64,000 nt of DNA, taken from positions 3,844,001 through 3,908,000 of the forward strand of contig NZ_CP107834.1 in NCBI RefSeq assembly GCF_036346595.1, written 5' to 3'. This stretch comes from Streptomyces sp. NBC_00525 (GTDB taxonomy: Bacteria; Actinomycetota; Actinomycetes; Streptomycetales; Streptomycetaceae). A program made the position numbers and the translations under genes. Below the pieces are notes generated by a model, which saw nothing but the letters and a program-made list of their open reading frames with translations, was not told the DNA's origin and searched no databases. Within the stretch, counting starts at the first letter, position 1. Each line of letters begins with the position of its first letter. Positions 23,776 to 48,037 of the stretch are shown in pieces.

Positions 23776-25980
23776 TCACCGTCCGCCGCTGCCGGGGTTG
23801 CGCGTACGCCGCAGCCACGGGCCGAACTCGCTGTCCAGGACCAGCCGTCCGAGCTTGCGGTACTCCGCCAGCACCGCGGTGACCAGCTGGTCCGTGTCCA
23901 GCGGGCGGCCCGAGTCCGCCGCCTGGTACGCGGCGGTCACCGCGCACGCCCGGATCGAGCCGCCCGTCAGCTCGAACCGCTCCGCGCACGTCGGCAGGTC
24001 CAGGTCCGGGGCGCGGGGGATCTCCGTGCCGAGGCAGCGTTCCCACAGGGCGAGCCGCTGTTCGGCGTTGGGCACGGGGAAGTCCGCGACCACGTCCAGA
24101 CGGCGGGTGAACGCCTCGTCCAGGTTGGCGCGCAGGTTCGTCGTGAGGACGGCGATGCCGTCGAAGGACTCGATGCGCTGGAGCAGATAGGCCGACTCCA
24201 CATTGGCGTGCCGGTCCTGCGCGTCCTTGACCTGCGAGCGCTTCCCGAAGACGGCGTCCGCCTCGTCGAACAGCAGCACCGCGTTGACGTCGGACGCCTC
24301 CGTGAAGATCCGCTCCAGGTTCTTCTCGGTCTCCCCGACGTACTTGTCCACCACGGACGACAGGTCCACGACGTACAGCTCCATGCCCAGGTCCGCCGCG
24401 ATCACCTCCGCCGACATGGTCTTGCCCGTCCCGGACTCCCCGGCGAACAGCGCGACGATCCCGCGCCCCCGGCCGCCGCCCGGCCGCATCCGCCACCGGC
24501 CCAGCACCTGGTCGCGGTGGCGGGCGCGCAGCGCCAGGTCGGACAGCTGGCGGCGGGTCGCCGGGGGCAGCACCAGGTCGTCCCAGCCGACCGCGGGCTC
24601 GATGCGGCGGGCGAGCCGGGCCAGCCCGGCCCCGTTCTGCGCGCGTACGGCCGTGCGCAGGTCGCCCGCGGCCACCGGCCGGCCCTCCAGGGCGGCCAGC
24701 CGGGACGCCACGGTGGCGGCGCGGCGGATCTGCGCACTGTCCAGCCGGTACGCGCGGATGGCGTCCACCAGTTCGGCGTCGGCGTCGGCGTCGGCTTCGG
24801 CGGACCCGGTGCCGGCGGCCGGCCCGTCGTCGGCGCCCGCGCCCATCCCCGTACCCGCGCCCAAACCCATGCCCGCGCCCGCGTCGGCGAGCGCGCCGCG
24901 CCAGCGCCGTATCGCGTCGGCCGGGTCCGCCGGGGCGACCGGGATCGTCACCGGGCTCTCGGCCGCCCACAGCGGGTCCCAGTTCTTCTTCCCGTACAGC
25001 AGCAGCGGCGCCCCGCCGCCGGCCGCCGCGCACAGGGCGCCGAGCAGCGCGGCGCCCTTGGGCCGCTCCGGGGCGAGGGTCTCCAGCGGGCCCAGGACGA
25101 GCCCGGCGCCGCTCAGCCGTGCCTCGGTCGCCAGGACGCGCACGGCCAGGTCCGGTTCGGGGGCCGCCGCCAGCGCGGCCGCGTCCACGACGAGCGGGCG
25201 CAGCCCGGCCGCGGCGAGCGCGCCCGCGGCGAGGCGGGCCGGGTCGCCGCCCCGGTCCAGCAGGTGCACGAGACCGCTGCCGGTGCCGGCCGCCGCCGCG
25301 ACGCGCCGGGTCACCGGGCAGCCGCCGGGCCCGTCCGGCTCGTCCGGCGGCGCGGCCACCCGCACCAGGCCGTGCGCCCGCGCGTCCACCTCGTCGTCGC
25401 CGAGCAGATGCGCGGTGACCCGGTCCGGGACGCGCAGCACCCGCGACAGCAGCGGGCGTTCGGGCTCCAGGATCTCCACCAGACCGGCCGCGACGAGCGG
25501 CGCGGACGGCGAGAACCGGAACCGGCCGGGGCCCGCGCCGGGCAGGCCGCACAGTTCGAGCGCCAGGCCGATCGTGGCCCGGCGCCGGGTCAGGTCGTCG
25601 TTGAGATAGCCGTACAGCCGCTCGAACCGGGCGTCGATGTCCGGGGCCATGGCGACCAGCAGGAGATCGACGTCGGGCCCGGCAAGACCGAACCGGGCCA
25701 CCAGCGCGCCGATCCGGCCACCCCCCGGCGGTGGTTCCGGGTCCTGCGGCCCGTGACCGGGGACGGGCCGGAACGCGTCGCGTGAGTCCAGCACCCGTTC
25801 GGCGGCGGCGGGCGTGAGGTACTGCCCCAGGAACGGATCGTCCGGCTCCGGATCGACCTCGCGGCGCAGGGTGACCGCGATCCGCACCCGCCGCTCGACC
25901 TCCCCGAGCCGCGCCCAGAGTTCGGCGACGGCCGCGTCCGGCCCGTCGAGCCCGGCGGGCGTCTGCTGTACGGCGGTCAC
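23776..25980 (-). CDS. CIS-associated AAA+ ATPase
   Basis: A 734-aa ATPase. The N-terminal half (about 1-360) is an all-helical/Rossmann-like region with degenerate nucleotide-binding character, followed by a Gly/Ala/Asp low-complexity linker (about 370-400). The AAA+ core has Walker A GESGTGKT (about 513-520), Walker B VLLFDEADAVFG (about 575) and an Arg-finger-like RRLDVVADFP near 618. Such ATPases are constant partners of extracellular and cytoplasmic contractile injection systems, where a role in assembly or disassembly is inferred. It is the third gene of a minus-strand operon (beta-propeller protein, DUF4255 protein, ATPase). GTG 25980 has a GGAGGCGG ribosome site. Confidence 0.88.
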   Translation of the reverse strand: MTAVQQTPAGLDGPDAAVAELWARLGEVERRVRIAVTLRREVDPEPDDPFLGQYLTPAAAERVLDSRDAFRPVPGHGPQDPEPPPGGGRIGALVARFGLAGPDVDLLLVAMAPDIDARFERLYGYLNDDLTRRRATIGLALELCGLPGAGPGRFRFSPSAPLVAAGLVEILEPERPLLSRVLRVPDRVTAHLLGDDEVDARAHGLVRVAAPPDEPDGPGGCPVTRRVAAAAGTGSGLVHLLDRGGDPARLAAGALAAAGLRPLVVDAAALAAAPEPDLAVRVLATEARLSGAGLVLGPLETLAPERPKGAALLGALCAAAGGGAPLLLYGKKNWDPLWAAESPVTIPVAPADPADAIRRWRGALADAGAGMGLGAGTGMGAGADDGPAAGTGSAEADADADAELVDAIRAYRLDSAQIRRAATVASRLAALEGRPVAAGDLRTAVRAQNGAGLARLARRIEPAVGWDDLVLPPATRRQLSDLALRARHRDQVLGRWRMRPGGGRGRGIVALFAGESGTGKTMSAEVIAADLGMELYVVDLSSVVDKYVGETEKNLERIFTEASDVNAVLLFDEADAVFGKRSQVKDAQDRHANVESAYLLQRIESFDGIAVLTTNLRANLDEAFTRRLDVVADFPVPNAEQRLALWERCLGTEIPRAPDLDLPTCAERFELTGGSIRACAVTAAYQAADSGRPLDTDQLVTAVLAEYRKLGRLVLDSEFGPWLRRTRNPGSGGR

Positions 25981-33562: not shown

Positions 33563-35080
33563 ATGCCGTCGTACCTCACCCCAGGTGTTTACGTGGAGGA
33601 GGTGCAGTCCGGAGCACGGCCCATCGAGGGAGTCGGCACCGCGGTCGCCGCCTTCGTCGGCTTCGCTGAGACCGGCCCGTTCCACCGGCCGACGCTGGTG
33701 ACCAGCTGGGACCAGTACGTTTCGACCTTCGGCACCTTCACCCCGGACACGTACCTCACGCTCGCCGTCCACGGGTTCTTCAGCAACGGCGGCGGCGCCG
33801 CGTACATCGTGCGCGTCGGCGGCCCCGCCGAGGGCGCCCCGCAGGAGATCGCCCCGGCGCCCTCCGTGGCCATCGGCGGCTTCCTGGTCTCCGCCCGGCC
33901 CGGCGCCGGCGACGGCATCTCCATCGAGGTCGCCGACGCCGAGGGCGAGAACCCGCCGGAGGACCGGTTCCGGCTGCTGGTGCGGCAGGGCGGCAAGGTC
34001 GCGGAGACCTTCGACACCTCCGTACGCAAGAATGTCAAGGGCTACCTGGTCACCCAGGCCCGCCAGTCCAAGCTCATCGAGGTCACCGAGCAGCCCGGCG
34101 CCGCCCAGAGCCGCCCCGAGAAGCAGAGCCTCACCCTCGCCCCCGCCACTCCGGGCACCGCCACCGGCCGCACCGGCGCCGTCGAGTTCGTCGGCGACGC
34201 GGCGGAGCGCACGGGCATCGCGGCCCTGGAGGCGATCGACGAGATCACCATGGTGGCCGTCCCCGACCTGATGAGCGCCCACCAGCGCGGCGACCTGGAC
34301 GACGAGGGCGTCCGCGCCGTACAGCTCGCCGTCATCGCGCACTGCGAGCAGATGGGCGACCGGGTCGCCGTCCTGGACACCCCGCCCGGCATGAACGCCC
34401 AGCGCGTACGCACCTGGCGCAACGACGACGCCGGCTACGACTCCCGCTACGCCACGGTCTACTACCCCTGGCTCAAGGTCCTCGACCCGGCGTCGGGCCG
34501 GCAGACCCTGATGCCGCCCAGCGGCCACGTCGCCGGTGTCTGGGCGCGCAGCGACGGCGAGCGCGGAGTCCACAAGGCGCCCGCCAACGAGGTCATCCGG
34601 GGCGCCCTGGACCTCGAACTCCGGCTCAGCCGGGGCGAGCAGGACCTCCTCAACCCGATCGGCGTCAACTGCGTGCGCGCCTTCCCCGGCCGGGGCATCC
34701 GGATCTGGGGCGCCCGCACCCTCTCCTCCGACCCGGCCTGGCGCTACCTCAACGTCCGCCGGCTCTTCAACTACCTGGAGGAGTCCATCCTCCTGGGCAC
34801 CCAGTGGGTCGTCTTCGAGCCCAACGACGACCGCCTCTGGTCGAGCATCCGGCGCAACGTCACCGCGTTCCTCTCCGAGGAGTGGCGCCGGGGCGCGCTC
34901 TTCGGCCGTACGGCGGAGGAGGCGTTCTACGTCAAGTGCGACCGGGACAACAACCCGCAGGAGTCCATCGACCTCGGCCAGGTCGTGTGCGAGATCGGCG
35001 TCGCCCCGGTGAAGCCCGCCGAGTTCGTCGTCTTCCGCCTCTCGCAGTTCTCGGACAGCACCAGCCTCGTGGACGAGTGA
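33563..35080 (+). CDS. Contractile tail sheath protein
   Basis: A 505-aa sheath subunit whose helical polymer contracts to drive the tube. It opens YLTPGVYVEEVQSGARPIEGV, the standard sheath N-terminal motif. The C-terminal domain (about 350-505) has KAPANEVIRGALDLE, GINCVRAFPGRGIRIWGARTLS (split here as VNCVRAFPGRGI and RIWGARTL), WRYLNVRRLFNYLEESI and the terminal handshake region. ATG start with an AAGGAG site 6 nt upstream. It begins the core structural operon and is followed by the tube gene after 65 nt. Confidence 0.96.
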   Translation: MPSYLTPGVYVEEVQSGARPIEGVGTAVAAFVGFAETGPFHRPTLVTSWDQYVSTFGTFTPDTYLTLAVHGFFSNGGGAAYIVRVGGPAEGAPQEIAPAPSVAIGGFLVSARPGAGDGISIEVADAEGENPPEDRFRLLVRQGGKVAETFDTSVRKNVKGYLVTQARQSKLIEVTEQPGAAQSRPEKQSLTLAPATPGTATGRTGAVEFVGDAAERTGIAALEAIDEITMVAVPDLMSAHQRGDLDDEGVRAVQLAVIAHCEQMGDRVAVLDTPPGMNAQRVRTWRNDDAGYDSRYATVYYPWLKVLDPASGRQTLMPPSGHVAGVWARSDGERGVHKAPANEVIRGALDLELRLSRGEQDLLNPIGVNCVRAFPGRGIRIWGARTLSSDPAWRYLNVRRLFNYLEESILLGTQWVVFEPNDDRLWSSIRRNVTAFLSEEWRRGALFGRTAEEAFYVKCDRDNNPQESIDLGQVVCEIGVAPVKPAEFVVFRLSQFSDSTSLVDE

Positions 35081-35145: not shown

Positions 35146-35586
35146 ATGGCAGAGGGCGACGCTCTTTCCACCCACGTCTTCGGCGTGCAGCTCGGCGGCT
35201 ACCTCGTGGAGTCCATCCAGGAGATCAGCGGGCTGACGGTCGAGGAAGAGGTGGTCGAGGTCCGGCAGGTGACCTCCACCGGCAAGCAGATCATCCGCAA
35301 GCAGCCCGGCGCGCGCCAGGCCGGCGAGGTGACGATCACCCGAGGGCTCGACAAGAGCAGCGAGTTCACCAAGTGGATCAAGGAGACGCTGAACAACGGC
35401 GCCGTCGACACCGCTCGGCAGAACCTCACCATCGAGATCAAGGACTCCAAGGGTGAGACCGTCCGCCGCATCCAGCTGATGCAGGGCTGGGCCAGCCGCT
35501 GGGAGGGCCCCTCCCTCAAGGCCGGCGAGTCCAGCGCGGCCACCGAGACGGTCACCATCACCTTCGAGGAGATCGTCGTCGAATGA
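35146..35586 (+). CDS. Inner tube protein (gp19/Hcp-like), copy 1
   Basis: A 146-aa tube subunit that stacks as hexamers inside the sheath. The fold signature runs LSTHVFGVQLGGYLVESIQEISG, VVEVRQVTSTGKQIIRKQPG, and ends AATETVTITFEEIVVE. This is the major-tube type. It is larger than phage minor tube proteins and lies immediately after the sheath, as in PVC, Afp and CIS loci. Its stop overlaps the next start (ATGA). Confidence 0.95.
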   Translation: MAEGDALSTHVFGVQLGGYLVESIQEISGLTVEEEVVEVRQVTSTGKQIIRKQPGARQAGEVTITRGLDKSSEFTKWIKETLNNGAVDTARQNLTIEIKDSKGETVRRIQLMQGWASRWEGPSLKAGESSAATETVTITFEEIVVE

Positions 35587-36083
35587 GGCGCAGGACCGTT
35601 TCCGGCGGCGGCCTCGAAGAGGTCCTGGACTCCCTGGCCGCCGCCGCGCCCGCGCAGCGCGAGGCCGCCCCGGCGGCGGCCCCCGCGCCCACCCCGGCCG
35701 CCCCGCCCGTCCGCCGGCCCGACGAGTTCGACTTCGAGCTGCCGCGCGGCTACGTGGACGACGAGGGCCGGGTCCACCGGACCGGCACCATGCGGCTGGC
35801 CACCGCCCGCGACGAACTGCGCCCGCAGATCGACCTGCGGGTCAAGGAGAACCCGGCCTACCTCAGCGTCGTGCTCCTCAGCCAGGTCATCACCCGGCTC
35901 GGCACGATCACCGATGTGCACGCCGGGGTGGTGGAGCGGATGTACGCCACCGACGTGGCGTTCCTCCAGGACTTCTACCGCCGCATCAACAGCGAGGGCC
36001 ACACCCACGCGGCCGTCACCTGCCCGCTGTGCCAGGGCACGTTCGAGGTGGACCTGTCGGGTGAGCGCCTGGGGGAATCGTGA
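35583..36083 (+). CDS. Tail assembly protein-like (TAC-type) with a CPLC motif
   Basis: A 166-aa protein. The first 45 residues are Ala/Pro-rich. The central core (about 60-145), starting FDFELPRGYVDDEGRVHRTGTMR, resembles tail-assembly chaperone-like proteins (T4-phage gp41/E-type family). A CPLCQG motif lies near 151, possibly one half of a zinc site. It overlaps the tube gene (ATGA) and the following 52-aa gene (GTGA), a coupling typical of tape-measure/chaperone regions. No tape measure gene of classical form is seen downstream, so length control may lie elsewhere. Confidence 0.75.
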   Translation: MRRRTVSGGGLEEVLDSLAAAAPAQREAAPAAAPAPTPAAPPVRRPDEFDFELPRGYVDDEGRVHRTGTMRLATARDELRPQIDLRVKENPAYLSVVLLSQVITRLGTITDVHAGVVERMYATDVAFLQDFYRRINSEGHTHAAVTCPLCQGTFEVDLSGERLGES

Positions 36084-36238
36084 CGTACGCGCCTTCCCGG
36101 CTGCGGGAGGAGCTCGCGTACATCGCCTACCACTTCCACTGGCAGCGTGAGGAGATCCTCGACCTCACCCACGGTGAGCGGCAGGAATGGGTGAGGGAGA
36201 TAGCGCGGATCAACACCCGCGTCAACGAGAGCGGGTGA
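36080..36238 (+). CDS. DUF6760-like 52-aa protein of the injection system
   Basis: A 52-aa gene, coupled to the previous one by a GTGA overlap and 4 nt before the next start. The protein opens MTYAPSRLREELAYIAYHF and has HWQREEILDLTHGERQEWV, mainly helical. It corresponds to the tiny DUF6760-type proteins encoded in Streptomyces CIS operons at this position. Its length, overlapping start and strong GC3 bias support a real gene despite the small size. The function is unknown; a chaperone frameshift-product analogue is a guess. Confidence 0.85.
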   Translation: MTYAPSRLREELAYIAYHFHWQREEILDLTHGERQEWVREIARINTRVNESG

Positions 36239-36242
36239 GGGC

Positions 36243-39212
36243 GTGGAGTTGAAGGGCTGGTTCCGGCGGAGCACCGTCCGCGCGGAGCGTACGCCGGTGC
36301 CCGAGCCGGTCGCGCCCGAGCCCGCGACCGCGCCCGCGCCGCCCTCCCCGCGCCCCGGCGCGGACTGGGACGGCGGCTGGCGCCGCGTCGCGCCCCCGGT
36401 GGTCACGGTCGCCCGCTCCTCGATCGGCGTCAGCGACGGCCTGCGCTTCCGCTCCCGCCTGGCCTCGTGGCAGAACGTGGCCTACAGCGACGGCGAACTG
36501 GGCCATGCCGTCCTGCCGACGGCCCCGGTGGGCCGCATCCACGGAGTGACCCACACACCGGGCACGCCACGCACGGCCCCGGAAGGCACCCCGTTGGTGC
36601 TCCGCACGGTACCGGCGCCTGCGGACGGGGTTACGGGGACGGACGCGCCTTCCGGCGGGGTTACGGGTACGAGCCCGGCGCCCCGGACCGGTCGGGGCGC
36701 GGACGCGCCCAGGCGCGCTGTCCGGGTGGTGTCCGGCTCGGCGCGGGCCGCCGGGACGACGGCGGGAACTCCCCGGACGAGCGATGCCCCGGTACGGGCC
36801 CGGCGCACGGCGCCCCCGTTGATCGTCGCCCGCCGCCCGATGACGGCCCCGCGCACGGTGCCCGCGATCGCGACGAGCGCGGTTCCGGCGCAGGCGCCGG
36901 GGTCGGCCCCGGTGGTGCAGCGGTCGGCCGAGGCGCCGGCGGTACGCCCCGCGCTGGGCGAGCCGGTGGCCGAACTGCCCTCCGGGCCGGCCGTTTCGGC
37001 CCCCGCGACGGGGGGCGAGCCGGTCCCTGCGGCGGAGCCGGAGCTGCCGGTGGTGCAGCGCCGGGTGGACGGGCCTGTGGCGCCTGTGCCGACCTCGCCG
37101 GGCACCGCCCCGGAGCCGGTCCCGCCGGTGGTGCAACGGCACGTGCGGGCGTCCGCGCACTCCGCGCATCCCGCGCCTTCCGCGCCTTCCGCGCCGGAAC
37201 GGCCCGCCGAGGGGTCGGCTGTCCGGCGCCCGGCGGACGCTGCTCCGGTGCGTCCTGTGCTGGGTGAGGCGCCGTCCGGCGCGGAGCCGGTGGTGCAGCG
37301 GCAGTTGGCCGCACCGGGGGAGGCTACGGAGCCGGTCCTGCCGGTGGTTCAGCGGAAGGCGGACGCGCCCGTGCCGGGGGTGAACCCGGAGCGCCCGGTC
37401 ACCGGAGCGTCGGAGGCACCTGCGGTGCGTCCCGAGCCCGTTGTGCAACGGCGGGCCGAAGCACCCGTGGCCCCCGTGCTGGGCGCGGCCCCGGAGCCTC
37501 GTCCGGTCACCGCTGGGGCGTCCGACGTACCTGTGGTGCGTCCCGAGCCCACCGCACCGGAGACGCCCGCCGCCTCGGGCCCGGCCCTGCCGGTGGTGCA
37601 ACGCCAGACCGACGACGCGCCCACCACGCCGGAACGGCCCAGCAGCGGCCCGGCGTCCACGGGCCCGATCCCGCCCGTGGTGCAGCGGAAGGCGGACGCG
37701 CCCGCGCGCCCCGCATCGGAGCGGCCCGGCAACAGCCCCGCCCCGACGACCCCGGTTCCGCCGGTGGTGCAGCGCGAGGTGAACGCGCCCGCGCGCCCCA
37801 CGTCGGAGCGGCCCGACAACAGCCCCGCCTCGACGAGCCCGGTCCTGCCCGTGGTGCAGCGTCAGGCGAGCACGCCTGCCCGGCCCGGCAACGGCCCCGC
37901 GCGCCCCGCGCCGGGTGCGCCGGACGCGCCCGGCGTCGTACCCGTCCCTCCCGCCCCCGCCGTTCAGCGGCGTACATCCGACGCGCCGCCCGTCCGGCCC
38001 GCCCTGGGGGCGCCGCTCGGCGAGCTGCCCGCCACCGCGCGCCCCCTGGGCGCAACCGCACCCGCGCCCCAGCCCGCCGCCGAAGGCGGCCCCGCGCTGC
38101 CCGTCGTACAGCGGCAGGCCGACGCACCCGCGCCCACGGGCCCCGACGCACCCCCGGCGCCCCAGCGGCCCTCCACCCGCCCCGCGTTGGGCAAGCCGAT
38201 GCGGGCGATGCCGTCCGCAGCGGCCCCGTTCGCGGGCCCCCTGCCCGTCGTGCAGCGGCAGGTGTCCGACGCCCCTGCCCCGCCCCCGGTACCGGGCGCC
38301 GCACCCGACTCCGCACCCCCCGCCGGCCCCGGCGCGCAGGCGCGTACCCGAGGTGGGCTCGGCGCGCCCATGTCCGCCCTCCCGCCCACCGCCGGCACTC
38401 CGAGCGGCCCCGCGCCGACGCCCCCGGCCATGCCCCTGCGCAGCGCGCCCGCCCCGCAGCCCCGCGCCCCGCAGCCCCCCGCCGTACAGCGCACCGCTAT
38501 CGCCCCCGTCCGTATCCGCAGCGTCCGCACGCCCTCCATCGGCACCGCGCCCGCGCCCGCCCCCGTGCAGCGGGCCCGTGCTCTGCTCACCCGGCGGACG
38601 CTCGCCGTGCGTACCGGCGCCGCCGAGGGGTTCACCGCACGTCCGTCCGCCGCACCCACCCGGCCCGTCGTCCCGGCGACCTGGCCGCGCCAGCAGACAC
38701 AGCAGGCTCAGCAGTCACAGCAACCCCAGCAGCCACATCAGCCCCAGGCGGCCCCGGCCACACACGCCCCACTCGCCACACCCGTCGCCCACCCCGCCCC
38801 CCTGCAGCGCGTCGCCGTCCACCCCGCTGCCCCGCCCGCACCCCACGCGCCCCTTCCCGCGCGTCCCACGCCGCACTTCGGGCAGGAGCCGCCGCCCCCG
38901 GAGAACCTGGTCGGGCCGCACGAACCCCGCGTACCGCAGAAGCTGTCCGCGCGCCCGGCGACGGGCCAGGCGCCCGGCGCGGCGCCCGTGCAGCGGCTCG
39001 TCGCGGGGGTGCCGGTCACCGTGGTGCAGCGGCAGCCCGCGCCGGGGGCCGCCCCCGCGCCGGAGCCGCCCGCGGCCGAGCGCCCCGCGCCCCCGGACGT
39101 GGACGTCGAGGACCTGGCCCGCCGGCTCATCGACCCCGTCGCCCGGCTGCTCCGGGCGGACCTGCGGCGGGGCAGGGAACGTACCGGACGCCCGTACGAC
39201 GGCCGCCGCTGA
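36243..39212 (+). CDS. Large Pro/Ala-rich protein with 17 VQR repeats, CIS-linked
   Basis: A 989-aa protein without a recognised enzymatic domain. A globular-looking N-terminus (about 40-105) contains WDGGWRRVAPPVVTVARS and GLRFRSRLASWQNVAYSDG. From about 222 to 930 the chain is disordered, rich in Pro and Ala, with 17 [V/A/P]VQR motifs, 13 of them VVQR, most as LPVVQR or PPVVQR followed by a variable residue and a DAP-rich spacer. Five copies of an RPxLGxP(x)nLP-like motif also recur. A Gln/His run lies near 820-835. The tail (about 955-989) is a conserved-looking amphipathic helix, DVEDLARRLIDPVARLLRAD. It sits between DUF6760 and the second tube gene. The role is unknown: tape-measure, scaffold, effector carrier or cell-envelope anchor are possible. 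Confidence 0.7.
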   Translation: MELKGWFRRSTVRAERTPVPEPVAPEPATAPAPPSPRPGADWDGGWRRVAPPVVTVARSSIGVSDGLRFRSRLASWQNVAYSDGELGHAVLPTAPVGRIHGVTHTPGTPRTAPEGTPLVLRTVPAPADGVTGTDAPSGGVTGTSPAPRTGRGADAPRRAVRVVSGSARAAGTTAGTPRTSDAPVRARRTAPPLIVARRPMTAPRTVPAIATSAVPAQAPGSAPVVQRSAEAPAVRPALGEPVAELPSGPAVSAPATGGEPVPAAEPELPVVQRRVDGPVAPVPTSPGTAPEPVPPVVQRHVRASAHSAHPAPSAPSAPERPAEGSAVRRPADAAPVRPVLGEAPSGAEPVVQRQLAAPGEATEPVLPVVQRKADAPVPGVNPERPVTGASEAPAVRPEPVVQRRAEAPVAPVLGAAPEPRPVTAGASDVPVVRPEPTAPETPAASGPALPVVQRQTDDAPTTPERPSSGPASTGPIPPVVQRKADAPARPASERPGNSPAPTTPVPPVVQREVNAPARPTSERPDNSPASTSPVLPVVQRQASTPARPGNGPARPAPGAPDAPGVVPVPPAPAVQRRTSDAPPVRPALGAPLGELPATARPLGATAPAPQPAAEGGPALPVVQRQADAPAPTGPDAPPAPQRPSTRPALGKPMRAMPSAAAPFAGPLPVVQRQVSDAPAPPPVPGAAPDSAPPAGPGAQARTRGGLGAPMSALPPTAGTPSGPAPTPPAMPLRSAPAPQPRAPQPPAVQRTAIAPVRIRSVRTPSIGTAPAPAPVQRARALLTRRTLAVRTGAAEGFTARPSAAPTRPVVPATWPRQQTQQAQQSQQPQQPHQPQAAPATHAPLATPVAHPAPLQRVAVHPAAPPAPHAPLPARPTPHFGQEPPPPENLVGPHEPRVPQKLSARPATGQAPGAAPVQRLVAGVPVTVVQRQPAPGAAPAPEPPAAERPAPPDVDVEDLARRLIDPVARLLRADLRRGRERTGRPYDGRR

Positions 39213-39229: not shown

Positions 39230-39655
39230 ATGACGGACAACATCTTCGCGACGAGCGTGTTCTTCACGCTCGCCATCGGCGGAAACGACCTCGGCGCGTT
39301 CCACACCTGTTCCGGCCTGGGGGCCGAGGTGGAGGTGGAGCAGTACGCCGAGGGCGGCAACAACGGCTTCGCCTGGCAGCTGCCGGGCCGGATCACGTGG
39401 ACGAACATCACGCTCACCCGCCCGGTCACCGCCGACACGCTCAAGATCGCGCGCTGGCTGAACGAGACGACGCAGCGGGTCGAGCGCAAGGACGGCGAGA
39501 TCGTCGCCCTGCGCCCCGATCTGACGCGGATCATCAGCTGGCAGATCCAGGGCATCGTGCCGGTCCGCTGGCAGGGCCCGTCGTTCGACCCGGCCAGCTC
39601 GCAGGCCGCGATCGAGACGCTGGAGATCGCCCACGAGGGCCTGGTGCCGTCCTGA
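39230..39655 (+). CDS. Inner tube protein, copy 2
   Basis: A 141-aa gp19-like tube protein, shorter than copy 1. It begins NIFATSVFFTLAIGGNDLGAFHTCSGLGAE, includes WTNITLTRPVTADTLKIARWLNE and ends AAIETLEIAHEGLVPS. Having two tube paralogues is normal in PVC/Afp/CIS systems, where the second is thought to form a tube-baseplate adaptor. AGGGAAAG lies 8 nt before the ATG. The LysM gene follows after 64 nt. Confidence 0.93.
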   Translation: MTDNIFATSVFFTLAIGGNDLGAFHTCSGLGAEVEVEQYAEGGNNGFAWQLPGRITWTNITLTRPVTADTLKIARWLNETTQRVERKDGEIVALRPDLTRIISWQIQGIVPVRWQGPSFDPASSQAAIETLEIAHEGLVPS

Positions 39656-39719: not shown

Positions 39720-40457
39720 GTGGCCGCCGCTGCCCGCACGAGCCGTGCCCGCGCCCAGCTGACCATCATGGAGCCGCCGTCGGACGTCGGCGCCAAGCCC
39801 GGCGGCACGCTCGCCCGGCTCACGCTCCAGTTCAACCCGGCCTCACTTTCCCTGAGCAAGACCACCGAGTGGCGCCGCACCCCGTCCCGTACGGCGGGCG
39901 AGTCCGCGCTGCCCGAATTCGTGGGCAGCGGGCCCCGCTCGCTCTCCCTCGACGTGTTCCTGGACGCCACCGCCACCCACGACAACTCCGTGGAGAAGGC
40001 GGTCGAGCAGCTGATGACGGCCTGCGTGCCGACGCCGACCAGCCTGGGCCGGAAGAAGCCGTCGAGCCCCTGGGTGCGGTTCGACTGGGGCACGTCCACG
40101 ACCACGTCGTTCGACGGCGTGCTGGCCGGCCTCTCCGTCTCGTACACGCTGTTCGACGTGGACGGGAAGCCGCTGCGCGCCACCTGCTCGCTGTCCATCG
40201 AGGAGGCGAGCGTCGACCCGGCCGGGCAGAACCCGACGTCCGGCTCGCGGGAGGCCCGCCGTACGCACACGGTCGTCGCCGGGGACAGCCTGCCGCTGCT
40301 GGCCTGGCGGGAGTACGGGGACGCCACGGCCTGGCGCACGATCGCCGAGGCCAACGACATCGACGACCCGATGCAGCTCGCCCCCGGCAGCGAACTTCTC
40401 GTGCCCGCCCTTGAGGACGACGCGGCGGAAGCGGGCGTACGGGAGGCGGCCCGGTGA
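39720..40457 (+). CDS. LysM-domain baseplate/tube connector (gp53-like)
   Basis: A 245-aa protein that links the tube to the spike in this family of systems. The N-terminal domain (about 1-175) has LQFNPASLSLSKTTEWRRT. The C-terminus (about 180-240) is a LysM motif: RTHTVVAGDSLPLLAWREYGD and a PGSELLVPAL ending. In the Afp/PVC group such proteins (Afp7-like) clamp the hub. GTG start with GGAAGGAGGG site. Its end overlaps the spike start (GTGA). Confidence 0.93.
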   Translation: MAAAARTSRARAQLTIMEPPSDVGAKPGGTLARLTLQFNPASLSLSKTTEWRRTPSRTAGESALPEFVGSGPRSLSLDVFLDATATHDNSVEKAVEQLMTACVPTPTSLGRKKPSSPWVRFDWGTSTTTSFDGVLAGLSVSYTLFDVDGKPLRATCSLSIEEASVDPAGQNPTSGSREARRTHTVVAGDSLPLLAWREYGDATAWRTIAEANDIDDPMQLAPGSELLVPALEDDAAEAGVREAAR

Positions 40458-42226
40458 CCGGCCCCGCCCGCTCCTTCGCCGCCGACCCGATCGTGGAGGC
40501 CCCCGCCGAGCTGCCCGCCGCCTGGGCCGCCCAGCTGGTGAGCTGCGCGGTCGACGAGAACGTCGGACTCCCCGACAGCGCCGTACTCACGTACCGCGAC
40601 CCGTACCACACGCTGCTCACGGCCACCGGGATCACCATCGGGACGCCGCTGAAGATATCCGTGGTCACCGTCCAGGAACGGGCGCGCGAGCGGCTGTTCA
40701 CGGGCGAGGTGACCGCGCTGGAACTCGACAGCGACACCACCGGATCGTTCACCGTCGTCCGCGCCTACTCCAAGGCGCACCGGCTGCGGCGCGGCCGGAA
40801 GGTGGTCGCGTTCCGCAACATGAAGGCCGCCGACATCGTCCGCAAGGTCGCCGCCGGGGCCGGGCTGCCGTGCGGGAAGGTCGAGGCGGCGCCCGTCATG
40901 TACAAGCAGCTCACCCAGCCGAACATCTCCGACTGGGACTTCCTCCAGTACCTGGCGGGGGAGTGCGGGGCGCATGTGCGCGTCGACGAGAACGGCGTGC
41001 TCCAGTTCGTGAAGCCGAAGCCCGCCGCCTCGGCGCCCGCCCCGTCCACCTCCGCGTCCAAGCACCCGATGGTGCTGGAGTACGGGCGCAACCTGCTGGC
41101 GCTGCGGGCCGTGCTGACCGGCGCGGACGGGGCGGACAGCGTCGAGGTGCGCGGCTGGGACGTGGAGACGAAGACCCGCCTCGTCGCCCGCGAGCAGTCG
41201 ATCCGGTCCACCACCGTGGTGCCCGGCGCCAGCCCGTCCGCCGCGGCCGGGGCCTTCGGCCCGAACGCCCGGATGACCGTCGCGGACACCCCGTACCGGA
41301 CGCAGGCCGAGGCACGCGCGGTCGCCGGGGCGGTCGCCGCGCGGGTCTCCTCCGGCTTCGGCGAGATCGAGGCGGTCGCCGAGGGCAACCCGAAGCTGCG
41401 GGCGGGCGAACCGGTCGCACTCGGCAACGTGGGCCCCGCCTTCGCCGGGCGCTACACCGCGACCGCCGCCCACCACACCCTGGACCCGCAGGGCGGCTAC
41501 CGTACGACGCTCCTGGTCAGCACCGACCCGGACCGCTCGCTGGCCGGGCTCACCGGCGGCGGGGCGGCGCCCGTGCCGGGGCCCCGGATGCCCGGCCTCG
41601 CCATCGGCGTCGTCACCGACATCCGCGAGGGGCGGGGCGGCGGCGAACGCGGCTCGGTACGGCTCAAATTCCCCTGGCTGGACGACACGTACGTCACCGA
41701 CTGGGTGCGCACCGTGCAGTGGGGCGGCCAGGGCGGCGGCGGGGTGTTCAGCCCCGAGGTCAACGACGAGGTCCTGGTCGGCTTCGAGCAGGGCATGCTC
41801 GACAGCCCGTATGTGCTGGGCGGGCTGTACAACGGCGTCGACAAGCCGTCCCCGCACGACGTACCGCTGGTGGACCCGACCAGCGGCAAGGTCAACCGCC
41901 GCTCCCTGGTGTCCCGTTCGGGCAACCGGATCGAACTGCTCGACACCCCGCGCGGCCCGTCCGGGGTACGGCTCGCCACCGGCGACGAGCAGCTGGAGAT
42001 CACGCTGGACGAGCGGCGCGGCGAGATCGCGCTCAAGGTGTACGCGCGCGGCACCTCGCGCGTCCTCAGCTCCCTGTCGCTCGACCGCTCCGGTATCACG
42101 CTCGACGCGGGCACCGGCGACGTCCGGATCAAGGGTCGGCAGGTGAACGTCAACGGCAAGACCGGCGTCACCGTCGACGGCGGACTGCTCGCCGTCCTCA
42201 AGGCCGCACTCGTCCGCATCAACTGA
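40454..42226 (+). CDS. VgrG-like central spike/baseplate hub protein
   Basis: A 590-aa fusion of a gp27-like hub (about 1-370) and a gp5-like OB/beta-helix part (about 380-590). The C-terminal portion shows RGSVRLKFPWLDDTYVTDWVR, a WGGQGGGGVFSPEVNDEVLVGFEQG core, YVLGGLYNGVDKPSP and a repeat-rich tail ending DVRIKGRQVNVNGKTGVTVDGG. This penetrates the target layer with a PAAR tip. There is no lysozyme domain. Coupled to the LysM gene by a GTGA overlap. The PAAR gene follows after 92 nt. Confidence 0.95.
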   Translation: MTGPARSFAADPIVEAPAELPAAWAAQLVSCAVDENVGLPDSAVLTYRDPYHTLLTATGITIGTPLKISVVTVQERARERLFTGEVTALELDSDTTGSFTVVRAYSKAHRLRRGRKVVAFRNMKAADIVRKVAAGAGLPCGKVEAAPVMYKQLTQPNISDWDFLQYLAGECGAHVRVDENGVLQFVKPKPAASAPAPSTSASKHPMVLEYGRNLLALRAVLTGADGADSVEVRGWDVETKTRLVAREQSIRSTTVVPGASPSAAAGAFGPNARMTVADTPYRTQAEARAVAGAVAARVSSGFGEIEAVAEGNPKLRAGEPVALGNVGPAFAGRYTATAAHHTLDPQGGYRTTLLVSTDPDRSLAGLTGGGAAPVPGPRMPGLAIGVVTDIREGRGGGERGSVRLKFPWLDDTYVTDWVRTVQWGGQGGGGVFSPEVNDEVLVGFEQGMLDSPYVLGGLYNGVDKPSPHDVPLVDPTSGKVNRRSLVSRSGNRIELLDTPRGPSGVRLATGDEQLEITLDERRGEIALKVYARGTSRVLSSLSLDRSGITLDAGTGDVRIKGRQVNVNGKTGVTVDGGLLAVLKAALVRIN

Positions 42227-45540: not shown

Positions 45541-46835
45541 CCCGCCCGTGCCCGGCCTGCGGCGCCGCGAACGCGGAGGACGAGGACTTCTGCGGAAGCT
45601 GCGGTACGTATCTGGGCTGGTCGTCCCGACCCGGAGGCGGGGGACCGCGGACGGCCCGGACCCCCGACCCGGAACCGGAACCGGCACCGGAACCGCCCGC
45701 GCCCGCCGTACCGGAGGGGGAGCGGCGTACGGCCCCGGAACCGTCGGCCTCGGAACCGTCGGTACCGGAGCCGGAAGCCAGGCCGGAGCGGCAGCCGGAG
45801 CCGAGCCCCCGCCCCGAGCGGCGTACTCCGCGAACCCCTGCACCGCGCCCGGCCCCGACATCGGCGCCTGCGCCGGAGCCCTCCCCGGCACCGCGGCCGG
45901 AGGCACGCCCCGCCCCGCAGCAGAGCCCCGCGCCGACCCCGACCCCGACCCCGGAGCCTCCGCGCACCCCCGCTTCCCGCCCCGCGCCCGCCCCCGTACG
46001 GCCGGCGCGGCCGGAACCGCCGCGCCGGGAGCCGACGCGCCCGGAGCCGGAGGAGGAGCCGATCGGGGCCGTGCGCCCCGGCGTACCGGTCGCCGCGCGC
46101 CCCACCGTCCGTACGGTGGCGGCCGAGGAGGACGCGGACGGTGAGCCGTGCCCGTCGTGCGGGACGAAGAACCGGCCGGGCCGCACGTTCTGCCGGAACT
46201 GCGCGCAGCCCCTCAAGCCACGGGCGGCGGCCGCCGCGTTGCCGTGGTGGCGGACCCGCTGGCCGTTCAACCGCAGGGTGCGGGCGGGCTCGGGCCGGCT
46301 GCTGCGGGGCACCCTGATCGCGCTGGTGATCGCGGGACTCCTGGTAGGGGGATTCCTGCTGTTCCCGGCGGGCCGTTACGTCGTGGAGGACGTACGCGAC
46401 AAGCTCGGCGGCACGGGCGAGGTGAGCCCCGCCCACGTCTCCGCGAGCGCGTCGGCCGCGGGCCACCCCGCGAAGGATGCGGTGGACCAGCTGACGAACA
46501 CGTACTGGGGCGCGCCGAAGATCGGCGACGCGCTGACGGCGGAGTTCGAGAACCCGTTCCGCCTGGTCGGCGTCACGGTCTACACGGGCATCTCGAAGAA
46601 GCCGGAGAACTTCCACAAGGGCGCCCGCCCGACGAGCGCGAACCTGCTCATCAAGACGAAGGACGGAAAGACCCACGAGAAGAAGATGCCCCTGGCCGAC
46701 AAACCGGGCGAACAGACCCTACGCATGGGCATCAGCGACGTCGTATCCATCACCTTCGTCATACGAGAGGCCACGGGCCAACAGGACGGCCACCCGATAG
46801 CCCTGGGCGAAATCGAGTACTTCAAGCGAACGTGA
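45537..46835 (+). CDS. Zinc-ribbon, single-pass membrane protein with discoidin-like C-terminus (CisA-like)
   Basis: A 432-aa protein. A zinc ribbon CPACG-N-CGSCG begins at residue 5; the second, CPSCG-N-CRNCAQ, lies near 204-222. Between them is a 170-residue disordered Pro/Glu-rich stretch. One membrane helix (LIALVIAGLLVGGFLLFPAG) occurs near 258-280. The extracytoplasmic part (about 295-432) has a discoidin/F5-8-type fold: AKDAVDQLTNTYWGAP and ENPFRLVGVTVYTGIS. From memory, S. coelicolor CisA, proposed to couple the particle to the membrane and mediate firing and cell death, has this layout. Coupled to the gpI-like gene (ATGA). Confidence 0.75.
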   Translation: MTRPCPACGAANAEDEDFCGSCGTYLGWSSRPGGGGPRTARTPDPEPEPAPEPPAPAVPEGERRTAPEPSASEPSVPEPEARPERQPEPSPRPERRTPRTPAPRPAPTSAPAPEPSPAPRPEARPAPQQSPAPTPTPTPEPPRTPASRPAPAPVRPARPEPPRREPTRPEPEEEPIGAVRPGVPVAARPTVRTVAAEEDADGEPCPSCGTKNRPGRTFCRNCAQPLKPRAAAAALPWWRTRWPFNRRVRAGSGRLLRGTLIALVIAGLLVGGFLLFPAGRYVVEDVRDKLGGTGEVSPAHVSASASAAGHPAKDAVDQLTNTYWGAPKIGDALTAEFENPFRLVGVTVYTGISKKPENFHKGARPTSANLLIKTKDGKTHEKKMPLADKPGEQTLRMGISDVVSITFVIREATGQQDGHPIALGEIEYFKRT

Positions 46836-46855
46836 GGTGTGCGAGGGTTGCTCAC

Positions 46856-48037
46856 ATGCTCGGGGGTTGGGTGCGCGTCGCGGATCACGCCGTGTGGGGC
46901 CGGGGTTTTCCGGTGAAGTACCTCCTGGCTCAGGAGGACGAAGACGGCGTGGAACAGCTCTGGGGGAGGTGCGCGGGGGTCGAAGGGTTCTTCGTCGACC
47001 CTGCCCCGCCGCCGCGGGAGGTACTCACCCTCCGAGGGTGTCGCCTTAACGGCCTCCTGGGCGAGGTATTGGCCGAGCCCGGCGTCTCGCTACGGAGTCC
47101 GGGCGACGTGTGCGTGGAGGTCTGGGACGGCGAGCAGCCCGTGCAGTGGTGGACCCTCGTCGATGCGGTCGTGCTGGCCTGCCAGCCCCACCCGGCCGAT
47201 CCGGAACGGTACGACATTGTGCTCGGCGCCGGCGTCAGGAATGAGGAGGGCTTCTTCGGACTACCCGTGAGGCCGCGCTTCGAACTGTTCGTGGGAACAG
47301 CGAGTGCGGGCCGGTGCTCCGGCGTGGACGGCCTGTTCAGGCCGCGAGCGGACCCGGCCCCCGTTCCGATGGAGCTGATCGGCTGCGAGCCTGCGGAGCC
47401 CTTGCTCGCGGCGCTGCGACGACCCCGGCGGTCGGAGCGGGACTGGGCCTCCCTCCTGGTTCTGGACCGTCATGGTGCCGTGATGGCCTCCCACCTCGTG
47501 GGCCTGGCCATCACCGGAGCGCGACCGTCCGTGCTCGGCGGCACTCTCGTCGACATCACCCTCACCGATGGTGGCGACGACCGGCCATCCCCGGCGACCC
47601 GCCCGATCTGGGCGGAGTGGTACCAGGGCCCGCCTGCCGAACCCAACCTGTGGGCGCCGTACGACTCGCGGGGCAGGGACGCGTGGCTGGACCTCACCAC
47701 CCGCGCCTGGCGGATGCCCGCGCCCCGGCCGGACCGGTCCGGCGGTGAGCACCACCTCGACGGCCGGTTCGTCACGGACGCCGCAGGACTGCACTGCGCG
47801 ATCGCCGAGGCCCTGCTCGGACCCGGCCGCTACTTCGGCCGGGAGTGGAACTCCTTCAAGGACTGCCTGAGCGGAGGATTCGGAGTCACCCCTCCCTTCA
47901 CCCTGACCTGGCGCAACTCCGAGATCGCGCGCCGCGCCCTGGCGGACGTCGTGGATGACCCGAAGGACGGACGTTCCTACTTCGAAGACATCGTGCGACT
48001 CCTCGAACAAAGCGGCGCCACGGTCGATCTCCGGTAA
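46856..48037 (+). CDS. Barstar-domain (RNase-inhibitor-like) protein ending the CIS operon
   Basis: A 393-aa protein. The C-terminal ~90 residues match the barstar superfamily: LDGRFVTDAAGLHCAIAEALLGPGRYFGREWNSFKDCLSGG (key residues GRYFGREWNSFKDCL), then PFTLTWRNSEIARRAL and YFEDIVRLLEQSG. The N-terminal 300 residues contain two related segments, with FFVDPAPP and LFRPRADP motifs, of unknown fold. Barstar inhibits barnase-type ribonucleases by occupying the active site, so it could neutralise an effector RNase. It starts 20 nt after the CisA-like gene with a GAGGG site; no RNase toxin gene was recognised in the locus. Confidence 0.8.
   Translation: MLGGWVRVADHAVWGRGFPVKYLLAQEDEDGVEQLWGRCAGVEGFFVDPAPPPREVLTLRGCRLNGLLGEVLAEPGVSLRSPGDVCVEVWDGEQPVQWWTLVDAVVLACQPHPADPERYDIVLGAGVRNEEGFFGLPVRPRFELFVGTASAGRCSGVDGLFRPRADPAPVPMELIGCEPAEPLLAALRRPRRSERDWASLLVLDRHGAVMASHLVGLAITGARPSVLGGTLVDITLTDGGDDRPSPATRPIWAEWYQGPPAEPNLWAPYDSRGRDAWLDLTTRAWRMPAPRPDRSGGEHHLDGRFVTDAAGLHCAIAEALLGPGRYFGREWNSFKDCLSGGFGVTPPFTLTWRNSEIARRALADVVDDPKDGRSYFEDIVRLLEQSGATVDLR

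Follow-up and report, generated by a model that had tools for sequence, protein, structure and literature searches.

Background

In the phages P2 and lambda the tail assembly chaperone genes adjoin the gene for the tape measure (gpT in P2 and gpH in lambda), which is the gene that comes after the chaperone pair, and in phages this pair serves the tape measure. For the contractile injection system (CIS) of S. coelicolor, section 6 of PMC12237407 describes particles that are identical in length and calls the tape measure gene absent. The diffocin tape measure is described as binding the spike with its C-terminal helices and as extending over 1388 A with 817 residues (PMC11329794). The present analysis concerns a CIS locus in a stretch of 64,000 nucleotides from Streptomyces sp. 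NBC_00525 (contig NZ_CP107834.1, positions 3,844,001 to 3,908,000), the whole of which is called the window, and in particular a Pro/Ala-rich protein of 989 amino acids (aa) encoded between the DUF6760 gene and the second tube gene, here called the slot protein. We read it as a disordered tape-measure-type protein of a class IId CIS, with a probability of about 0.6. Directly upstream are two genes that resemble the tail assembly chaperone pair of phages, with a -1 frameshift site between them, and this gene pair is the decisive evidence for the placement of the slot protein as a tape measure.

Features of the slot protein and the gene pair, by position in the window:
35583..36083 (+), tail assembly chaperone-like gene, 166 aa (phrog_508)
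36071..36077 (+), candidate site of programmed -1 frameshifting, slippery heptamer GGGGGAA
36080..36126 (+), potential hairpin just 3' of the slippery site, 13-bp stem
36080..36238 (+), DUF6760, in the -1 frame relative to the gene before it, possibly an extension of the chaperone (PF20546, E 2.7e-14)
36243..39212 (+), slot protein, 989 aa, GTG start, candidate disordered tape-measure-type protein (open reading frame, slot, motif counts, AlphaFold2)
36363..36605 (+), conserved N-terminal segment, residues 41-121, without a confident fold (conservation, AlphaFold2)
36915..39032 (+), VQR region, residues 225-930, with 17 VQR motifs and LG-box repeats (motif counts)
39105..39182 (+), C-terminal helix, residues 955-980 (AlphaFold2; the tail profile matches slot proteins across Actinomycetota)

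Results

With E-values up to 1 included, each of the 12 aligned members of the 166-aa protein matched phrog_508 ('tail assembly chaperone'), the best at 1.2e-5 and the window's own copy at 3.5e-5. Among 12 DUF6760 members, five had a weak match to PF06528 (Phage_P2_GpE), with 0.0057 as the lowest E. The window's own DUF6760 gave no such match and was the sole member among the 12 to match phrog_1756 'tail protein' (E 0.0054). The slot gene lies directly after the chaperone-like gene or genes, the GpE part being weak. An initial annotation, made from the DNA letters without database searches, had named DUF6760 and the second tube gene as neighbours, and both were recovered by family searches (PF20546 upstream, PF06841 with E 9.8e-33 downstream). 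It had expected a tape measure or a cargo protein between them. The chaperone-like pair with its -1 site gives the tape-measure position better support than could be seen at that time, and the overall interpretation is partly supported. A CPxC..F stretch near the end of the 166-aa protein is conserved in all 12 aligned members, with weak zinc-ribbon matches only.

In each of the 18 loci that encode a slot protein, complete or cut, the DUF6760 gene lies in the -1 frame and overlaps the end of the first gene. Among 15 DUF6760 loci, six (L180-L183, L185 and L186) have no slot protein that matches the tail, and two (L173 and L184) are cut at a contig end. In five of those six DUF6760 is also in the -1 frame, and in L183 it is in the same frame as an upstream open reading frame (ORF) that is not chaperone-like. 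The letters CTGGGGGAATCGTGA at the junction are unchanged in 120 of 128 cases. The eight that deviate comprise the six loci that lack a slot protein, together with L176 and L177, in which GGGGGAA is retained. All 113 Streptomyces loci (33/33 and 80/80) contain GGGGGAATC; these loci are related and not independent. L179 has a different ending with the heptamer GGGGGGG and a DUF6760 head that lacks the usual start codon. Gly and Glu are mostly encoded otherwise in these genes, GGG making up 40 of 161 Gly codons and GAA occurring 27 times vs 126 for GAG. Of 150 Streptomyces genomes, 67 contain a 19-mer that spans the heptamer and none contains the reversed control, with matches counted genome-wide. 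The description of PRFect (PMC10885494) reports GGGGGAA as the 'fivetwo' slippery motif in all of about 1000 SEA-PHAGES cases, with G:U re-pairing as explanation, and tail assembly chaperones as 2397 of the 2476 frameshift genes in its set. The heptamer at the overlap of the two CIS genes carries strong sequence marks of programmed frameshifting, by which the two products would be fused. A limited literature search rendered no title on Streptomyces CIS with a tail assembly chaperone or a frameshift, which may be in print elsewhere.

The recount of the 989-aa reading frame confirmed the repeats reported in the initial annotation. There are 17 VQR motifs, all of the form [VAP]VQR, of which 13 are VVQR and 12 PVVQR, together with one LQR and one PQR. 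Shuffles, which in all motif counts preserve the composition and not the relatedness of the sequences, gave 0.44 +/- 0.68 VQR by chance. The five LG-box repeats are also present, four reading RPxLG (residues 235, 337, 585 and 646) and one RTRGGLG (residue 701). Three Val, two Gln and three Arg codons are used in the 17 VQR copies (dominant are GTG in 13, CAG in 14 and CGG in 12), and the copies are therefore not the result of one recent exact DNA duplication. The motif is also abundant in 83 homologues from a protein search, where it occurs 654 times compared with 18.7 +/- 3.9 expected, while the scrambled forms QVR and RVQ occur 3 and 10 times. These homologues, where named, are annotated as 'hypothetical protein' or 'Syndecan 1'. 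P-V-Q-R itself is conserved and the residue that follows is variable. Arg follows P[PVA]VQ in 68 of 74 listed cases from 22 orthologues and in 196 of 207 listed cases from 44 orthologues, with flanking sequence that drifts. As a control, the disordered parts of IF2 and RNase E from seven genomes had no [VLI]QR in 10280 residues (2.4 expected). A lack of conservation of the repeats in neighbouring species, which the initial annotation had named as fatal to its idea, was not what the comparison gave: they are conserved there.

AlphaFold2 with 40 aligned homologues predicted a single helix at residues 955-980 (block pLDDT, the predicted local distance difference test score, 80-91) and gave a pLDDT below 50 for 763 of the 989 residues, so that the slot protein outside this helix is predicted to be disordered. 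The mean column identity is 20% across the 40 homologues, and the bulk of the chain is fast-evolving and Pro/Ala-rich. The helix had been proposed from the letters and was borne out, but the proposed globular N-terminus found no support. Residues 41-121 are well conserved, yet their block pLDDT is 41-48 in the full-length run, and the first 130 residues alone, aligned with 39 more distant relatives, gave a mean pLDDT of 61 and no fold. The initial annotation had suggested searching CIS loci with a profile of the repeat and the C-terminal helix. Here a profile made from the last 45 residues in Streptomyces was run against 1185 ORFs from 24 stretches, and it detected the slot protein in each of the seven loci whose slot ORF is complete (two from Streptomyces and five from other Actinomycetota; E 4.5e-23 to 1.6e-5), while an N-terminal profile found only three of those seven.

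When the N-terminal 120 residues were searched, matches were found in 39 of 150 Streptomyces genomes including the window's own, and in 40 places in other genomes. Of these places 37 were taken as loci (G028, G130 and G144 were left out), and CIS genes were present in 34 of them and in none of L067, L069 and L070. In L067 (G107:C3:21831-36046) the N-terminal segment is matched weakly, at a distance of about 3.6 kb from a DUF4157 match. The published S. coelicolor sheath was used as a second query; it had 324 relatives, and the 80 best named loci among them were taken into the analysis. The window and both sets make up the 114 analysed Streptomyces entries; L045 gave no ORF. An intact slot ORF between DUF6760 and the tube initiator was found in 73 of 114 (22/26 window-type, 44/80 S. 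coelicolor-type and 7/8 others), and it starts as a rule 3-4 bases 3' of DUF6760. The intact proteins are 954-1181 aa long in the window-type (n=22), 1070-1486 aa in the S. coelicolor-type (n=44) and 618-1290 aa in the others (n=7). Outside the S. coelicolor-type set, the non-intact entries are at contig ends (L034, L051 and L053), split between frames (L035) or have masked bases (L060); in that set, 36 of 80 loci are cut, carry masked bases or are ambiguous. L062 was scored as intact on its C-terminal tail, in a frame without BLAST support. Draft assemblies often break inside the slot gene (L074, L076, L079, L080, L087, L089 and others), and intact copies may therefore be under-represented in databases. 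The genome of the window has a second CIS cluster outside the window (L171, G000:C1:6541001-6561000) with a chaperone junction of its own and a slot protein of 584 aa with nine QR motifs and the same tail as the window protein.

The S. coelicolor particle model includes SCO4243-4248, SCO4252-4253 and SCO4260 (PMC12237407). The genes that lie between the tube and the tube initiator would accordingly be SCO4249-4251. From gene order we infer that the window protein corresponds to SCO4249, which shares the slot before the tube initiator SCO4248 and is represented in nine close relatives by a VQR-rich protein of 1280-1433 aa. SCO4249 is neither named nor modelled in the published particle work cited here.

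The motif is common to DUF4157 proteins, the core proteins of extracellular contractile injection systems (eCIS). Three DUF4157 proteins in the genome of the window, outside its CIS cluster (L071-L073, at about 6.532, 0.100 and 0.137 Mb), all have [VLI]QR. The linkers of 120 closely related Streptomyces DUF4157 proteins, the best 120 of 2646, contain 478 [VLI]QR compared with 10.9 expected. Among 32 loci, 18 DUF4157 proteins were resolved and 15 of these have [VLIM]QR (46 vs 4.6 expected); the 14 loci unresolved by pattern were left out of this count, among them L193 with two motifs and L198 with three. The weak DUF4157 hits L209-L211, L214 and L215 had none. The motif was also found in seven of eight DUF4157 loci on viral contigs, which were characterised by their guanine-cytosine content only (45-69%). 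Because it is also enriched in DUF4157 linkers, [VLI]QR is probably a shared docking motif, and the idea of the repeat as a binding site, which the initial annotation had put forward, thereby gains support. The slot protein of L176 (4160-6409, reverse-strand reading) matches PF13699 (DUF4157, E 5.1e-24) and has the same C-terminal tail, and is a possible bridge from slot proteins to cargo of the Tme type. In L183 and L185, long proteins with a PF13699 match are found near DUF6760 in place of the slot protein. No conserved sequence was detected in the signal peptides of PVC and Afp according to PMC11297309, and a limited literature search for eCIS with VQR gave nothing related by title.

The initial annotation had suggested the repeat as a length-control scaffold. 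Repeat number as a ruler was rejected for the window clade because the count does not track length: in the 22 intact window-type orthologues there are 1-17 VQR in 954-1181 aa (Spearman -0.29, p 0.19). It does correlate in other sets (+0.46 in 44 S. coelicolor-type proteins, +0.49 in the 83 homologues, a set with short members). When the published length of the S. coelicolor particle (CIS-Sc, 230-268 nm) is divided by 1280-1433 aa, the lengths of the orthologues from nine relatives whose sheath is 91-99% identical, the result for this one published system is 0.16-0.21 nm per residue vs 0.17 in the diffocin tape measure. A fully stretched polyproline ruler was also rejected, since 1300 aa at 0.31 nm would reach about 400 nm and exceed the 268 nm of the particle.

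The remaining genes of the operon and its surroundings were assigned as follows:
33563..35080 (+), sheath (family matches)
35146..35586 (+), inner tube
39230..39655 (+), second tube protein or tube initiator (PF06841, E 9.8e-33)
39720..40457 (+), hub protein with CIS_tube and LysM
40454..42226 (+), VgrG-like spike
23776..25980 (-), AAA+ ATPase encoded near the cluster, possibly a loading factor

The open frame at 46676-48037 (+), which lies 3' of the CIS genes, contains a Barstar domain (PF01337, E 3e-11).

Discussion

In the mechanism that we favour, the 166-aa protein and its -1 frameshift fusion at GGGGGAA, which would carry DUF6760, form a tail assembly chaperone pair. These chaperones would bind the long unfolded chain and deliver tube subunits to it, while the C-terminal helix would anchor the chain on the spike or the hub. 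The disordered body would extend along the tube lumen, and tube growth would end at a point fixed in part by the total length of this body rather than by its count of VQR motifs. VQR would then serve as a short docking motif that is recognised by the chaperones, by the tube wall or by the loading ATPase; the DUF4157 proteins would bear it for the same reason. A broader proposal is more tentative, and we would place it slightly below an even chance: that class IId CIS retain an overlooked phage-type length-control module, consisting of a frameshifted chaperone pair and a disordered Pro/Ala-rich tape measure, and that [VIL]QR is a general loading or docking signal of eCIS, possibly well beyond Actinomycetota.

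Several observations weigh against the slot protein as a tape measure. It has no match in Pfam, PHROGs or solved structures (PDB), and the coiled-coil or mostly helical build of a phage-type tape measure is missing in the AlphaFold2 model with its one helix. Because both the sequence match and the helical build are lacking, the slot protein should not be filed in a known tape-measure family, though it may still work like a tape measure. The match between DUF6760 and GpE is weak, and no direct phage relative of the 166-aa protein was found by tblastn against 50,697 phage records. The conserved GGGGGA could partly act as a ribosome-binding site for the overlapping GTG, and the constancy of the junction is that of related loci. 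The hairpin is partly supported: its 13-bp stem is paired in 92.3% of cells with three compensated pairs, above shuffles, in 18 chosen sequences, but the covariation term of RNAalifold is +0.48, which is no net support, and the fold of the window sequence is unremarkable (z -1.74; 7 of 200 shuffles reached the same level). Regarding length, the nine close S. coelicolor-type relatives are spread over 1280-1433 aa. A strong length constraint was not borne out: the coefficient of variation of the variable part in the same 22 genomes is an unexceptional 5.4% for the slot protein, between the controls IF2 (2.6%) and RNase E (9.0%), where fixed parts were subtracted by rough constants and the IF2 and RNase E lengths run from stop to stop. 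About 85% of the tubes look empty in S. coelicolor without sco4256-4258, in particles described as otherwise like wild type (PMC10066040), and therefore a chain that fills the lumen is not seen there. AlgoCIS without its two cargo proteins is likewise reported as mostly empty-looking (PMC8894135). The unknown-function proteins given from mass spectrometry in one paper are SCO4242, SCO4256 and SCO4251, not SCO4249 (PMC10020575).

An alternative to a ruler is a cargo-loading scaffold. The tail helix would then dock on the hub and VQR would recruit or align cargo or the loading ATPase, with particle length set in some other way. The empty-looking but otherwise wild-type effector mutants (PMC10066040) are in line with such a role, as are the failure of repeat number to track length in the window clade and the frequency of the motif in DUF4157 proteins (478 vs 10.9, 46 vs 4.6 and seven of eight viral-contig loci). 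We nevertheless consider a scaffold unlikely, as it leaves the chaperone-like gene with its -1 frameshift site directly upstream unexplained. We consider it improbable that the slot protein is cargo that the particle ejects. In that case it would be related to Tme of S. davawensis but lack DUF4157, and length control would be secondary or absent. Phage tape measures are also ejected, and therefore a cargo role is compatible with the tape-measure reading. The slot protein of L176 with its PF13699 match and shared tail speaks for cargo, as do L183 and L185, where long PF13699-matching proteins near DUF6760 occur in the absence of a slot protein, and Tme, which is described as immediately upstream of the baseplate genes and about 70% disordered (PMC11126660). 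The protein of the window, on the other hand, has neither a Pfam domain nor a folded domain in the AlphaFold2 model.

It is less probable still that VQR is a processing site at which a protease cuts the chain into short peptides. A conserved P-V-Q-R followed by a variable residue is compatible with cleavage after Arg, and DUF4157 carries a metallopeptidase-like HExxH motif (PMC8213781), but the growth effect of the DUF4157 cargo Cgo1 is reported to be independent of its metalloprotease motifs (PMC8894135). Functionless repeats that arose by low-complexity drift of a GC-rich gene would agree with the 20% column identity of a mostly fast-evolving Pro/Ala-rich chain. This explanation is hardly tenable, however, as it is already contradicted by the motif counts: the 654 VQR in the homologues with few scrambled forms, the Arg retained after P[PVA]VQ, and the IF2 and RNase E controls.

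The tape-measure reading names a candidate for the gene that published work calls absent despite uniform particles (PMC12237407), and the question of the missing ruler becomes directly testable. If the reading is true, a non-helical tape measure would change the idea of rulers as rigid coiled coils, and it would be uncommon for a programmed frameshift to be conserved with almost no sequence change in the operon of a chromosomal injection system. The motif common to DUF4157 proteins and proteins in the tape-measure slot would in that case give a handle on loading in eCIS.

Comparison with known systems

Tme of the S. davawensis CIS and the eCIS-core proteins resemble the slot protein in that they are long, largely disordered and encoded in the same part of the operon, and DUF4157 proteins share [VLI]QR with it. 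They differ from it by DUF4157 and a nuclease domain, the window protein having no Pfam family. The chaperone-like pair differs from phage chaperone pairs in that it sits in a cellular injection system, has a CPxC stretch near the end of its first protein and has no phage match by tblastn. Like G/GT in lambda and E/E' in P2, it consists of overlapping ORFs in the -1 frame between the tube and the tape-measure slot. GGGGGAA, as in the SEA-PHAGES sites described in PMC10885494, the phrog_508 match, the weak P2 GpE match in 5 of 12 DUF6760 members and the potential hairpin are further points of likeness. The coiled coil of the diffocin tape measure CD1366 is a difference that counts against our reading, the slot protein being predicted as disordered and Pro/Ala-rich, without a sequence match or Pfam domain and with a presumed place in the lumen. 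CD1366 and the phage tape measures are nevertheless similar to the slot protein as long chains encoded right after chaperone-like genes, with a conserved C-terminal helix and N-terminal segment around a variable body, and, if the slot protein sets length, with a comparable number of nanometres per residue.

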